A program made the position numbers and the translations under genes. DNA of 64,000 bases from Candidatus Limosilactobacillus faecipullorum (lineage in GTDB: Bacteria; Bacillota; Bacilli; Lactobacillales; Lactobacillaceae), in the NCBI GenBank assembly GCA_019118465.1, contig DWYX01000059.1, forward strand, positions 1 through 64,000, read 5' to 3'. This document shows, in pieces, positions 24,821 to 53,653 of the stretch. Every line of letters starts with the position of its first letter. Position 1 is the stretch's first letter. Below the pieces are notes generated by a model that was not told where the DNA came from, ran no database searches, and saw only the letters and a list, made by a program, of their open reading frames with translations.

Positions 24821-25834
<1,014 letters not shown>

Positions 25835-25853
25835 ATCAGATTAATAATTTTAG

Positions 25854-25899
25854 AAAAAGCCAGGATGAAGTTCATTACGAAACTTCGTCCTGGCTTTTT
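25854..25899. terminator. Terminator after galR
   Basis: AAAAAGCCAGGATGAAGTT...AACTTCGTCCTGGCTTTTT. Confidence 0.85.
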
Positions 25900-25918
25900 G
25901 TGTCGGAAGTAGTTGAAA

Positions 25919-26205
25919 AGGGGAGGATGGGAAAGGCCACTAATTTAAAGGTTGGAACGTAGCCAAGTGGGTTCGCGGCCGACCGGCAACCTGTCTAGCT
26001 CACCGTAACTTAACCTTTATTGGTGGCCGTTTGTTTGTAACCTAAGTCACTAATCAGCTATGCCAGATATTGTTACTATCTTCTTCGGCTTGCATGGGCT
26101 CACAGACGCCAAGCAAGGCCCTGGCTAATGGCTGAGACTTTTCCTATCCTCTTCGCATCTTCGAATCTTACTCAGAAACTAAGGCCGGCGAGAAGGTTTC
26201 ATCCC
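25919..26205 (-). repeat. Long structured intergenic element, copy B
   Basis: Outer arms GGGGAGGATGGGAAAG / CTTTTCCTATCCTCTTC; inner arms GGCCACTAATTTAAAGGTT / AACCTTTATTGGTGGCC; shares blocks with 46076-46250 and 50775-50970. Confidence 0.6.
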
Positions 26206-26210
26206 GCTCC

Positions 26211-28430
26211 TTATTTAACAGCTTTAACCACAAAGAGGTGAGCGTAGAAGTCAGCTGGATCCTTTTCGGGTTGGGTCCGGTCCATTACCCGTGGCACGAA
26301 GTAACCAGCGTTCATCAATTCCGCCCCCGAGTAAGTTTCAGGGTCATCGTTAACGTGGTAGTTCATTTCAGGGTTCAAACCAGTGAAGTAGTAACGAATG
26401 TAGGCCGGGTTAGCACCGTTCAGAATTTGGAACCGCGCGCCGATAGCTTCAGTTTGGTCGTCGTTGACAACTTCCCAACCGTAAACATTATCATTCGTAT
26501 CTGGTGTTTCTAAGCGGTAGAAGTTTCCAAATTGGAAGAGGGAACGGTATTGTTTGTAGAAGGCTACTTGTTCCTTAATCGTCGCTTGTTCCTCAGCACT
26601 TAACTTAGTAATGTCAAGTTCGTAACCAAAGTCACCAAAATAAGCAACCTTAGCCCGGGTATCAATCGAAGTAACCCGCGCAACTTGGTCATTTGGTACA
26701 GCTGAAACGTGGGCGCCCCACATGTTTGGCCGGTAACCGTAAGAAGTTCCATCTTGAACCAGAATCCGTTCAATGGCATCGGTATCGTCACTAGCCCATG
26801 CTTGAGGAGCGTAGTACATCATCCCAAGATCGAAACGACCACCACCAGATGCGCAGGATTCAAAGAGAACGTTTGGATAAGCCTTGATTAGGCGATCATA
26901 GAGCTTATAAACCCCGAGGATGTACCGGTGAGCAAATTCGAGTTGTTGGTCAGCTGGCAGAGCTGCACCGTACATTTCAGTGATGCTCCGGTTCATGTCC
27001 CATTTGATGTAATCAAGCTTTGTTGTTTCGATAACTGCAGAAATCTTTTCAACTAGGTAATCAACGACTTCTGGCCGGGTCATATCCAAAACAAATTGGT
27101 GCCGAGCAGGGGTCGCGGTCCGGCCTGGGGTAGTGATCATCCATTCAGGGTGGGCATTGTGTAATTGGCTATCAATGGAAATCATTTCGGGTTCAAACCA
27201 AAGGCCAAATTTCAAACCGAGATCATGTACCTTTTGGGCAAAGCCGCCAATGCCGTTGGTGAACTTCTTTTCATCAGTGAACCAATCCCCAAGGCTAGAA
27301 CGGTCGTCATCCCGATGACCAAACCAACCGTCATCAAGGACAAACATTTCAATTCCGAGTTCCTTTGCCCGCTTAACAATTGGCATCAGCTTATCTTCAG
27401 TAAAGTCCATGAAGGTTGCTTCCCAGTTGTTAATCAGAATTGGCCGTTCTTGCTTAACAAAGTGTTGGTTAAGCAAGTGGTGATCATAGAAGCGACCTAA
27501 TTGTTGACTCAAAGCGTTTAGCCCATCAGTGGTGTAAGTAAGAACAGCTTCTGGGGTTTGGAAGCTTGTATTAGCTTTCAAGTTCCAGCCAAATTCGGTT
27601 GGGTTAATTCCAACCATTACCCGCGCGGTATCGAATTGGTCAACTTCGATTTCATCCTTAAAGTTCCCGGAATAAATAAAATTAAATCCGTAAGCTGCCC
27701 CTTGGTTATTATCTGTGTGAGGACGAGCTAAGATAAAGAATGGGTTTTCTTGGTGACTTGAATGGGCCCGAACAGATTCGATGCTTTGGCTTCCTGGCCG
27801 TAGGTGATTTCGGTAAAGATGCCGTTCCCGCGCCCATGAACCAGCAAATTGAAGGAAGTCGTAATCAGCATCTGGTAAGTCAAGTTGAGCACTAGCTACC
27901 CGGTTGATAAAGACATCGTCACCATTGTTGGTGAAAGTAGCGCTTCGAACGATAACATCTTCATCTTCAAAGACGGTGTAGTGTAAAGCTAAGTTAATTT
28001 GTAAGAGCTTATCAACTAAAGTAATCGTCAGAGTTTGGCTATCGTGGTGATCATCATCAAAGCTTGATGGTTGATCGGCAAGCCGCTGTTTTCCATCAAC
28101 TAATTGGTAACCTTGGTATTTAAATTCGCTAATCCGGGAGCCGTTAGTAGCTGTGATTTGGTAAGCCGGTACCCGGTAGTCCCCCTTCCCAAGGCTAGCG
28201 TATTCTTGCTTGATTAATTCGAGTTGGAAGTCGGTTTGTTGTTCATCGAGGGTGTTGGTACAATCGTGTTCTTCCATTCGGGTTAAGTTATCATAGCTAG
28301 CCTTAACGGGGACTTTGGCTCCATAATAAACTTGGCCGAGTTCGCCATTTGCTAACACCCGGAAGATGTAGCTAGTCTTTTTAGTTTGGAGATGGAAAAC
28401 TTTTGAACTTTCATTAACATGAATTGACAT
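26211..28430 (-). CDS. melA: Alpha-galactosidase, GH36 family
   Basis: MFVLDDGWFGHRDDDRSSLGDWF; KLDYIKWDMNRSITE; VLFESCASGGGRFDLGM. Confidence 0.95.
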   Translation of the reverse strand: MSIHVNESSKVFHLQTKKTSYIFRVLANGELGQVYYGAKVPVKASYDNLTRMEEHDCTNTLDEQQTDFQLELIKQEYASLGKGDYRVPAYQITATNGSRISEFKYQGYQLVDGKQRLADQPSSFDDDHHDSQTLTITLVDKLLQINLALHYTVFEDEDVIVRSATFTNNGDDVFINRVASAQLDLPDADYDFLQFAGSWARERHLYRNHLRPGSQSIESVRAHSSHQENPFFILARPHTDNNQGAAYGFNFIYSGNFKDEIEVDQFDTARVMVGINPTEFGWNLKANTSFQTPEAVLTYTTDGLNALSQQLGRFYDHHLLNQHFVKQERPILINNWEATFMDFTEDKLMPIVKRAKELGIEMFVLDDGWFGHRDDDRSSLGDWFTDEKKFTNGIGGFAQKVHDLGLKFGLWFEPEMISIDSQLHNAHPEWMITTPGRTATPARHQFVLDMTRPEVVDYLVEKISAVIETTKLDYIKWDMNRSITEMYGAALPADQQLEFAHRYILGVYKLYDRLIKAYPNVLFESCASGGGRFDLGMMYYAPQAWASDDTDAIERILVQDGTSYGYRPNMWGAHVSAVPNDQVARVTSIDTRAKVAYFGDFGYELDITKLSAEEQATIKEQVAFYKQYRSLFQFGNFYRLETPDTNDNVYGWEVVNDDQTEAIGARFQILNGANPAYIRYYFTGLNPEMNYHVNDDPETYSGAELMNAGYFVPRVMDRTQPEKDPADFYAHLFVVKAVK

Positions 28431-28450
28431 AACGACGTTCCTTTCCTGGT

Positions 28451-28492
28451 AAAAAACGGACCCGGACAAGGTTTAACTTGAGCGGATCCGTT
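28451..28492 (-). terminator. Intrinsic terminator/attenuator between lacS-type symporter and melA
   Basis: Minus strand AACGGATCCG...CGGGTCCGTTTTTT directly before the melA RBS. Confidence 0.65.
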
Positions 28493-39011: not shown

Positions 39012-39156
39012 GTTGTTATCCTTTCTATTTAATTATCCAGGTTTATTATAACGAACAACAGCAAAAGTTAATGAAATTCGTGATTGATATTTTGGAATGT
39101 AAAAAAAGCGACGAGAAAATTCATTCTCGTCGCTTTTAGTTTTCAACTCACGTTGA

Positions 39157-43890: not shown

Positions 43891-44313
43891 ATGATGACGG
43901 CAAAATTATATCCGTTTTTAACTTTTGAAAACGCAAAGGAAGCAATGGCCTACTATGCGGAAGTTTTCGGGGCCCAAATTATTACTCACAACCCGCTTAG
44001 CGAAGCGCAAGTGACGAACTTGGGGTTGGAAGTTTCAGATCTTGAAGAGACAACCGCATTAGGTGAGTTTACGGTTGCAGGGCAAAAAATTATTTGTGCG
44101 GATGCAACAATGAATAATCCACAACCTTCATCCTTAGTGGCGATTCTATTAAATTTTGATGGTGATGAAGGAGCTGCCCGGGAATTTTTTGATCGGTTAG
44201 CTAGTTCAGAAGAATTACGGGTGACAATGCCATTCGGACCTCATCAATATTATGGCCAATTAGGTCAAATTGTGGACCGTTACGGGATCACGTGGTATGT
44301 AGTTTCTGAATAA
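43891..44313 (+). CDS. VOC-family protein (PhnB/glyoxalase-like)
   Basis: MMTAKLYPFLTFENAKEAMAYYAEVFGAQI; start after cggagg. Confidence 0.88.
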   Translation: MMTAKLYPFLTFENAKEAMAYYAEVFGAQIITHNPLSEAQVTNLGLEVSDLEETTALGEFTVAGQKIICADATMNNPQPSSLVAILLNFDGDEGAAREFFDRLASSEELRVTMPFGPHQYYGQLGQIVDRYGITWYVVSE

Positions 44314-44329
44314 TATTCAGAGATGAAAT

Positions 44330-44366
44330 AAAGACCAGGAAGAACTCGCTTCTTCCCGGTCTTTTT
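44330..44366. terminator. Bidirectional terminator
   Basis: AAAGACCAGGAAGAA / TTCTTCCCGGTCTTT. Confidence 0.8.
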
Positions 44367-44838
44367 ACTTTTCATCTGCAAATTCACTTGCCCGTTGCTT
44401 AAGAACACCATAAATTCGTTCGATATCTCGATCCGTTCCCCGGAGTTCATAGTCAGCAAGAAAAGGTAAATTAAACTTGGCAGAATATTTGCGAGCCGTC
44501 AAGCAATACTGCTCGTTGAAATTTTTATTTCCAGAACCAACAATTCCCATGCAACGTTTGATATTGTCGTTTTGTTCTACATATTCTCCCAAAGGATTAG
44601 TCAGCATTTCGGTAAAGCCAGAATCAAAGCCGTTACCACCGTCGAGGTAAGTCGGAACGAAGATAAAGAAGGGCTGGGTTTCCTTAGCTGGTAAGGTTTG
44701 TTCGGTAATTTCTTTTAGAGTAACTGCCGGATTAGCCTTATTGATGATATGTTGTTGTTCAGCGTATGAAGCCAAGCGTTTTAAAAAGGAGCGGGTATTT
44801 CCTTCAATTGAAATGAAAAGAATGCTAAGATCGTTCAT
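44365..44838 (-). CDS. nrdI: Flavodoxin-like NrdI
   Basis: LSILFISIEGNTRSFLKRLA; GIVGSGNKNFNEQYCLTARKYSAKFNLPFLADYELRGTDRDIERI. Confidence 0.9.
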   Translation of the reverse strand: MNDLSILFISIEGNTRSFLKRLASYAEQQHIINKANPAVTLKEITEQTLPAKETQPFFIFVPTYLDGGNGFDSGFTEMLTNPLGEYVEQNDNIKRCMGIVGSGNKNFNEQYCLTARKYSAKFNLPFLADYELRGTDRDIERIYGVLKQRASEFADEK

Positions 44839-46075: not shown

Positions 46076-46250
46076 CTACCGGGAAAGCGGTGGGGAGCAA
46101 GTCTCCTTAACGGCCTGGTGGGGATAAGGAGCGGCAAGGCTGATTCTAAAAGAATCGTTCTGTTTGGCGTTTGTGAACCTACGCAATTGTACGATCAGCG
46201 GAAAATTATTCTTTAAGGTAGTGGCTTTCGCCCCGAGTTTCTGTGTAATA
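46076..46250 (+). repeat. Long structured intergenic element, copy C
   Basis: GGATAAGGAGCGGCAAGGCTGATT...TGGCGTTTGTGAACCTACGCAA...GATCAGC...CTTTAAGGTAGTGGCTTTCGCC. Confidence 0.6.
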
Positions 46251-50774: not shown

Positions 50775-50970
50775 AGAGGTCGGGAGGAAACCTTTTCGAT
50801 AGCCTGAAAAGGATAAGTAGGACAAAGGTTGATTTACAGCAATCAAGGTAACTTTGAGCGTATTTCTATTACTCTGATATCGTGGTAAGAAGGTACGATC
50901 CTTATAGATAAGTCAGCCGGAGAAAATTTGTTTTGAAAATTTAATTTCGGTCTTTCCTTATCTCACAGGA
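50775..50970 (+). repeat. Long structured intergenic element, copy A
   Basis: CCTG..GATAAG ... GGTTGA ... TCAGCC ... CTTATC..CAGG nested stems; shared blocks with copies B and C. Confidence 0.55.
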
Positions 50971-50994
50971 CCGTTTGAAAGTTTTCTTACCAAC

Positions 50995-52374
50995 TCAATT
51001 CAAAGTTAATTTAACCACTGCTTCACACCGTGGAGTTTGTGGCAACATGTCAACGGGTTGGATGTAGTCGACCCGGTAGGTTGAGGTTAAGCGCGCTAGG
51101 TTCCGGGCTAAGGTTGCCATATTACAAGAAACATAGGCAAATTTCCGGGGTTTTTCAGCTAAGATGGTGTCAATTAATTTTTGATCGAGTCCGGTCCGGG
51201 GTGGGTCAACGACTAAGGCATCGAAGTGTTGCCCAGCTTGGCGCCACTTTGGTAATAGTTCTTCGGCCGCCCCACATTCATAATGGGCATTACTAATACC
51301 ATTCAACTTGGCGTTTTCATTAGCGTCATCAACGGCGGCTTGAATGGTTTCCATCCCCAAAACTCGTTTAACTTGACTGGCAAAGGAAAGCCCAATCGTC
51401 CCAATTCCGGCGTAGGCATCGATTAAAGTATCTTCCTTAGTTAAGTCCAAGGCTTTAGCGGTTTCTTCATAGAGGGTTTCAGTTTGAACCGGGTTGAGCT
51501 GTAAGAAGGACCGCGCTGAAAGTTGGAAATCCAGGCCCATTAAACTTTCCGTGACATAGTCTTTACCAGCTAAGTTAAGGGTTTGATCGCCCCAAACTAA
51601 GGGGGTGTCCCCAGGGTTAACGTTTTGCATGACTGAGGTCACCATTGGTAATTCGGCTTTAATGCGGGTTAAAAGTTGATGTTTTTTGATTAATTTCGGG
51701 GTATTAGTGATGAAAGTGACCTGGACTTCGCCCGTGGTAGTTTCTCGAATCGCAATCGTTTTAAGAATCCCACTGTGATTGCGCTCTTCATAGGTGGGGA
51801 TTTGTAATTCTTCGATAAACGTTACTAACGCCCGCATGACCGTCATGGTTTGGGGCATTTGGATGGCACATTCCTTTAAGTCAACTACTTCATGACTATT
51901 AGCCCGGTAAAGGCCGGCCACCACATGTCCGTCAACGGTCCGAACTTGGAATTGAGCCTTGTTACGATAACCGTATCCCTGGGGGCTTGGAAGAGTTGGT
52001 TTAACCTGGTAGTACTTGTAACCTTGGGGTTTAAACTTTGCCAGACTATCAAGGACGACTTGGCGCTTAAATTTGAGTTGGGCAGGATAAGCAAGGTGCT
52101 CTAATTCAAAGCCCCCCGCGATACCAGCAACGGCGTCCTTCGGCGTAACTCGATCCTTACTTGGCCGCTTAAGCCGATGAATCTTAGCGGTTAAGTAGCG
52201 TTCTTGGACAGCAGTAACTTCAGCCACGATAACTTCACCTGGTAAGGCCCCAGGAACGAAGCAAACCTTATGCTTAAAATAGCCGATACCTTGACCTTCA
52301 ATTCCTAATTTTTTGATTGTTAAAGGGAACCGTTCACCAACGGTAACGTGGACGGGGGTCGTTTGATGTTTCAT
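50995..52374 (-). CDS. rlmD: 23S rRNA (uracil-C5)-methyltransferase RlmD family
   Basis: TRAM-like N-term; LIDAYAGIGTIGLSFA; VDPPRTGLDQKLID; YVSCNMATLARNL. Confidence 0.92.
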   Translation of the reverse strand: MKHQTTPVHVTVGERFPLTIKKLGIEGQGIGYFKHKVCFVPGALPGEVIVAEVTAVQERYLTAKIHRLKRPSKDRVTPKDAVAGIAGGFELEHLAYPAQLKFKRQVVLDSLAKFKPQGYKYYQVKPTLPSPQGYGYRNKAQFQVRTVDGHVVAGLYRANSHEVVDLKECAIQMPQTMTVMRALVTFIEELQIPTYEERNHSGILKTIAIRETTTGEVQVTFITNTPKLIKKHQLLTRIKAELPMVTSVMQNVNPGDTPLVWGDQTLNLAGKDYVTESLMGLDFQLSARSFLQLNPVQTETLYEETAKALDLTKEDTLIDAYAGIGTIGLSFASQVKRVLGMETIQAAVDDANENAKLNGISNAHYECGAAEELLPKWRQAGQHFDALVVDPPRTGLDQKLIDTILAEKPRKFAYVSCNMATLARNLARLTSTYRVDYIQPVDMLPQTPRCEAVVKLTLN

Positions 52375-52540
52375 GGGAAAACTCCTTCGATCTATAATGC
52401 TGGTTACCATTCTAGCATTATTGGGGGATGATTGCCCGGGAAATAAAAGGATAGAAGATGATCAGAGAAAATATTTGAATTGGAGGAACTACTTACATTA
52501 TTGCTAATTAACTCAAAATTCCAATCACTTATCTTTTTGA

Positions 52541-53558: not shown

Positions 53559-53575
53559 GAAGGAACGAATTAGAA

Positions 53576-53602
53576 CACCAATCTAAAGGTTGGAACGTAG
53601 CC
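53576..53602 (+). repeat. Fragment of the copy B element
   Basis: CACCAATCTAAAGGTTGGAACGTAGCC matches 25938-25964 at 25 of 27 positions. Confidence 0.7.
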
Positions 53603-53610
53603 GACGCAAC

Positions 53611-53653
53611 TATAAAAAAAGCAACTTGATCATTGCGACCAAGTTGCTTTTTC
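53611..53653 (-). terminator. Terminator of the dlt operon
   Basis: AAAAAGCAACTTG...CAAGTTGCTTTTT. Confidence 0.8.

Follow-up and report, generated by a model that had tools for sequence, protein, structure and literature searches.

A probable non-autonomous, modular repeat family at terminator-type hairpins in two Limosilactobacillus species

The question raised by this locus is what kind of DNA occupies the interval between galR and melA. Within the window (the whole 64,000-nucleotide stretch that was analysed), galR (LacI-family regulator, 24839-25834, + strand) and melA (GH36 melibiase, 26211-28469, - strand) are convergent, and the intergenic region between them, 25835-26210, contains a repeat copy, designated copy B, at 25920-26210. 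An earlier note had described a non-coding interval between convergent genes; both gene orientations are as it stated, and the longest stop-to-stop stretch in the copy B interval is 56 codons, leaving it without a long open reading frame. The note also suggested that the interval belongs to a dispersed family, whose members would be structured RNAs or small non-autonomous elements.

Anatomy and fold of copy B

Copy B, read on the + strand, has the order A5, partial K, A3, B5, partial K, B3, S. Outside the element, a terminator hairpin (AGCCAGGATGAAG..CTTCGTCCTGGCTTTTT, 25859-25897) adjoins galR, with the same hairpin beside galR in Limosilactobacillus alvi (L217). The outer stem P1 is of terminator type, and its 5' arm (GAGGATGGGAAAG, 25923-25935) and 3' arm (CTTTTCCTATCCTC, 26138-26151) were recognized both from the fold and as an inverted repeat (25923-25934 versus 26140-26151, 92% complementary). 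In arm 1, the 5' side of the stem is module A5 (AAAGGCCACTAATTTAAAGGTT, 25932-25953), assigned by family alignment and covariation, and the 3' side is module A3 (TTAACCTTTATTGGTGGCC.., 26010-26031), assigned by inverted repeat and covariation; positions 25932-25944 and 25946-25953 pair with 26012-26019 and 26019-26031. The nested long inverted repeats named in the earlier note were thus both found at the arms given. Nested within arm 1 is a partial K-type module (25968-26001), identified using L001 1559-1592. Arm 2 is formed by module B5 (TAATCAGCTATGCCAGA, 26051-26067), seen in the fold and in other copies, and module B3 (CCCTGGCTAATGGCTGAGA, 26119-26137), seen in other copies. A second partial K module (26074-26117) is nested in arm 2; it holds CTTGCATGGGCTCACAGACGCCAAGC, a block already named in the note, and the K stem covaries in other copies. 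The 3' end consists of module S and a trailing end (GCATCTTCGAATCTTACTCAGAAACTAAGGCC + GGCGAGAAGGTTTCATCCCGCTC, 26155-26209), which by comparison with L. alvi is a compact form without the K-D insert of that species.

Folding of the + strand from 25910 to 26215 gave -101.9 kcal/mol, versus -88.3 ± 4.8 kcal/mol for shuffled sequences (z -2.85, 0 of 100 shuffles as good). The fold of the - strand is less striking (z -1.83, 5 of 100 shuffles as good). The + strand value is a point in favour of a functional structured RNA, either a cis-acting 3'-UTR element or a small RNA, with a conserved fold and transcription from one strand. However, copy B matched 0 Rfam families at the gathering score, and searching with a relaxed cut-off also gave nothing convincing.

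Family members, species range and module order

When copy B was used as a BLAST query against its own genome, partial matches were obtained at 43 places, and a second copy used as query gave 39 places. L. alvi An810, a sister species of the window's genome (∼88% DNA identity, or ∼12% difference over the aligned window), has about 39 places with the K pattern, most of which carry an identical 28-mer. There, 29 full-length copies of a 236-nt unit could be aligned, with a mean identity of 87% and a maximum of 99%. The dispersed family suggested earlier therefore has many further intergenic members, both in the window's genome and in this relative. All copy counts should be considered lower bounds, because the genome that contains the window reaches 88% completeness and, in both drafts, many contigs stop close to repeats. 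For the window's genome, sequence was read in stretches around the matches, amounting to about 30 loci. In short-read drafts from the L. alvi clade, contigs are often broken at copies of the repeat.

Of 54 Limosilactobacillus genomes, only the window's genome and that of L. alvi contain the A5 (arm 1) and K patterns; reversed-pattern controls gave 0. No copies were found in the other 52 Limosilactobacillus genomes or in about 285 further Lactobacillaceae genomes searched. The S pattern was present in 1 of 301 Lactobacillaceae genomes, the window's own, in a sample that excluded L. alvi. No match to the repeat was found in the plasmid and phage records searched, and viral contigs gave no exact match for the K core. 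Restriction to two species among the genomes searched argues against the structured RNA.

Five further regions of the window contain family modules, all given here in + strand coordinates. S modules with a terminator hairpin lie immediately 3' of the stop codon of ORF 137-811 (817-890) and between convergent ORFs (44300-44372), and an A5 fragment precedes a terminator hairpin at 53573-53617. The copy at 46076-46236 has D and K modules in the orientation opposite to copy B, and the copy at 50775-51005 has a D end (50776-50834) and M3 (50901-51005). The last two are the regions for which blocks shared with copy B had been claimed. Of these blocks, TTGGCGTYTGTGARCC is present in the 46076 copy (46162-46186), and CTTTAAGGTAGTGGCTTTC could be recognized there by eye in degenerate form (CTTTAA..TAGTGGC). 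Neither is present at 50775, which has other modules of the same repeat family instead, and the GGATAGGAAAAG block is not common to all three regions. The stronger evidence for family membership of copy B comes from outside the window.

At the approximately 30 loci read in the window's genome, modules follow one order: a terminator-type arm, A5, optional N1, optional N2, optional K/M3 and A3, then a linker, B5, optional K or Q, B3 and a terminator-type arm. The modules are themselves palindromic. A5 directly faces A3 in the compact copies L012 and L023, L024 is a near-perfect hairpin, and in larger copies the loop between the arms is filled by modules. M4 lies within N2, splitting it, in L002, L003, L010, L028 and L029, a visible case of one insertion entering an earlier one. 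In L. alvi the usual form is terminator hairpin, S, K, D and TTTTTTCCCAACCTC. The hairpin preceding S has a locus-specific stem sequence, and S, K and D are nearly constant. High conservation of S next to a variable terminator would suit a structured RNA, whereas the optional and nested character of the modules would not.

Compensatory changes and position at gene ends

Three different stems were analyzed for compensatory change. For arm 1 (23 copies), 93.3% of cells are paired, as against 18-56% in slid controls; percentages of this kind lean towards structure because the segments were chosen as partners beforehand, and two-sided changes are the stronger sign that stems have been kept. Arm 1 has 16 cells with two-sided changes versus 4.4 after shuffling (0 of 500 shuffles). 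The terminator hairpin beside S (38 sequences) has two-sided changes at 13 of 18 pairs and in 47 cells versus 17.5 shuffled (0 of 500), and the K stem (30 sequences) has 36 cells versus 13.6 (0 of 2000). Note that the shuffled controls carry no correction for kinship of the copies, and that the slid controls, made for arm 1 and the terminator hairpin, retain this kinship and collapse. The covariation among copies that the earlier note had proposed to look for is thus far above shuffled controls in all three stems, and the stem-loop structure has been kept by compensatory change.

The behaviour of the K stem also bears on whether K is a remnant of protein-coding DNA. In one frame the K block of several copies reads ..GTILLGLAWVRRRQ.., and this frame is open in a number of copies in the window's genome. 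Against a coding remnant, inspection shows that changes are not confined to third codon positions but also affect first and second ones, stops interrupt several copies, and the surrounding K stem covaries. We regard this origin as scarcely credible. The recurrent open frame ..VGTILLGLAWAHKRQ.. in copies of the window's genome was likewise rejected as a sign of coding origin on the basis of codon-position pattern and stops.

Strong two-sided covariation is also a point in favour of a structured RNA. Constraint on an RNA made from one strand is expected to favour GU pairs consistently on the transcribed strand. The ratios of GU to AC among non-Watson-Crick pairs are 12:8 for arm 1, 13:18 for the terminator hairpin and 6:11 for the K stem. 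Since wobble pairs have no strand bias, a DNA-level or two-strand constraint fits better than a one-strand RNA, although with these small numbers the symmetry is suggestive only. Copies are found in both orientations relative to genes, which also argues against such an RNA, and with the evidence on both sides considered we judge a functional structured RNA to be quite unlikely.

Among the 36 copies for which both neighbours are readable, 22 are flanked by convergent gene pairs (11 of 19 in L. alvi and 11 of 17 in the window's genome; about 26% expected; binomial p 0.003 and 0.0008) and none by divergent pairs (p 0.0002). These statistics are approximate because the gene calls were plain ORFs and the window's own gene pairs served as background. 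Many copies lie on an intrinsic-terminator hairpin at a gene 3' end, or within its loop. The hairpin beside S is G+C-rich with a T-tract at the gene 3' end, features that by sequence would identify it as an intrinsic terminator. From the hairpin and the A/T tracts at convergent ends, copies may perhaps be predicted to be bidirectional terminators.

Orthologous sites and modes of spread

At sites orthologous to window positions ∼3.5, 7.3, 15.0, 19.3 and 39.1 kb, L. alvi has element DNA and the window has only a terminator. Between galR and melA, L. ingluviei has terminators only, without the element. The same interval in L. alvi has a terminator-type hairpin with an ISL3-family transposase gene (PF01610) in its loop, followed by S and a K insert; the ISL3 insertion (L217 3-938 and L218 1-86) has an apparent 8-bp duplication, GAAAATTC, and this reading rests on synteny because the two contig ends there are unjoined in the assembly. 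In the window the interval has the compact S form, with arms 1 and 2 in the hairpin loop. One place has therefore been enlarged differently in each species. At several orthologous sites, L. alvi has element DNA that is lacking in the window's genome or in L. ingluviei.

Two other differences between the species were seen. Compared with window 39066-39141, L. alvi (L215) is ∼1.3 kb longer and carries a gene that by eye resembles cysteine synthase, together with a repeat copy; the window segment has neither. In L. alvi (G010:C45:96037-97481), a gene resembling TRAM/tRNA uracil-5-methyltransferase (window 50995-52410) lies in inverted orientation with respect to its neighbours. Inversion mediated by the repeat was considered and not adopted: a repeat copy adjoins one end of the gene in the window, but family modules were not seen at both ends in L. 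alvi.

Outer inverted repeats, a length of roughly 230-450 nt, absence of an ORF and dispersed recent copies are all features of a classical MITE, that is, an internally deleted insertion sequence with terminal inverted repeats that is moved in trans by the transposase of an IS and makes target-site duplications. However, the outer repeats look like the arms of intrinsic terminators and vary between loci with compensation. The species also differ in their terminators, and as a result no target-site duplication of the repeat was readable at the orthologous sites. No transposase with ends matching the repeat was found; the ends compared were those of the ISL3 type, the one IS whose ends were seen beside a copy, and its terminal inverted repeat (..GGTACTGATAG) differs from the ends of the repeat. 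A classical MITE is an unlikely explanation.

Repeats of the REP/BIME/REPIN type, moved by a RAYT (Y1) transposase, are likewise palindromic, intergenic and mosaic, and Y1 genes are present in both genomes. The window's genome has four Y1 (IS200-type) matches, partly truncated. However, the modules are much longer than REPs, and L. alvi, in which spread has been recent, has a single Y1 gene (G010:C10:21104-21460) with an in-frame TAA. We consider the REP-type reading very unlikely. As a driver of recent spread, RAYT/IS200 was set aside as weak, given the in-frame stop in the sole L. alvi gene.

The evidence on the two alternatives offered earlier favours the element over the RNA, because orthologous sites differ in presence or absence, L. 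alvi has recent copies that are nearly identical, the family is confined to two species among the genomes searched, wobble pairs are symmetrical and the modules form nested mosaics. Copy B probably belongs to a repeat family that is young, non-autonomous and modular, has spread as DNA and is built on bidirectional terminator-type hairpins; such a family is most likely a small parasitic DNA element living on transcription terminators. Each copy would be founded on a bidirectional hairpin of intrinsic-terminator type at a gene 3' end, with palindromic modules placed in the hairpin loop, or directly beside its T-tract, in fixed order. One such order is A5, optional N1, optional N2 (which may be split by M4), optional K/M3, A3, B5, optional K or Q, and B3; the other, separate order is terminator, S, K, D and distal arm. 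Spread as DNA may have depended on a trans-acting transposase, or else on conserved terminator arms that recombine or serve for template switching. Copies may be retained because convergent genes tolerate them at their 3' ends, and presumably also because they still fold to hairpins with A/T tracts able to stop transcription from both sides.

A further reading, which we put forward only tentatively, is that the hairpins are self-elaborating: palindromes would repeatedly enter the loops and flanks of terminators and of one another without a dedicated transposase, and arms would stay complementary during sequence turnover. If this is true, the route would be template switching or recombination through conserved terminator arms, and the terminators would themselves constitute an evolving population that is mobile and recombines.

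Comparison with known repeats

In the open-access literature that was covered in part, no description of this repeat was found. The closest general likeness of the favoured parasitic element is to BOX, RUP and SPRITE of pneumococcus, which are folded repeats, either modular or resembling terminators, that occur in few species and preferentially between convergent genes, are inserted into one another, and were judged most likely to be non-autonomous parasites (PMC3049150). BOX (Streptococcus pneumoniae and S. suis) is a modular composite with optional internal modules in fixed order, and is tightly folded, intergenic, over-represented between convergent genes, lineage-restricted and non-coding, as is the repeat described here (PMC3049150). 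BOX B modules, however, are in tandem between A and C, whereas here optional modules lie inside the arms of an outer hairpin and inside one another, and the outer stem resembles a terminator and shows covariation from locus to locus. SPRITE is likewise an intrinsic-terminator-like repeat strongly enriched at convergent 3' ends, but it has just one duplex, of 18 bp, with a U-rich tract, whereas the hairpin loop or flank here hosts several further palindromes. The likeness to BOX and SPRITE is one of description; no sequence relation to pneumococcal modules is claimed. MITEs such as RUP are similarly small, non-coding, palindromic and dispersed; for the present repeat no target-site duplication was readable, and the ISL3-type ends compared did not match. 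GC clusters of yeast mitochondria are also small palindromes that merge and shuffle into larger composites under structural constraint, but they belong to mitochondrial DNA, measure tens of nucleotides, have short duplications on either side and are not tied to terminators (PMC4478555).

Lactobacillaceae would thereby gain a counterpart of the pneumococcal BOX/RUP/SPRITE repeats. Because spread, nesting and turnover of terminators can all be followed at orthologous sites of two sequenced sister species, the movement of such repeats and any effect on termination are testable. By analogy, the best reading is that the repeat belongs to the general kind that includes BOX/RUP/SPRITE, BIME and MITE-like repeats, without assignment to any named family. 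What is distinct here is the nesting of hairpins within loops, together with the locus-by-locus compensatory turnover of the terminator stem.
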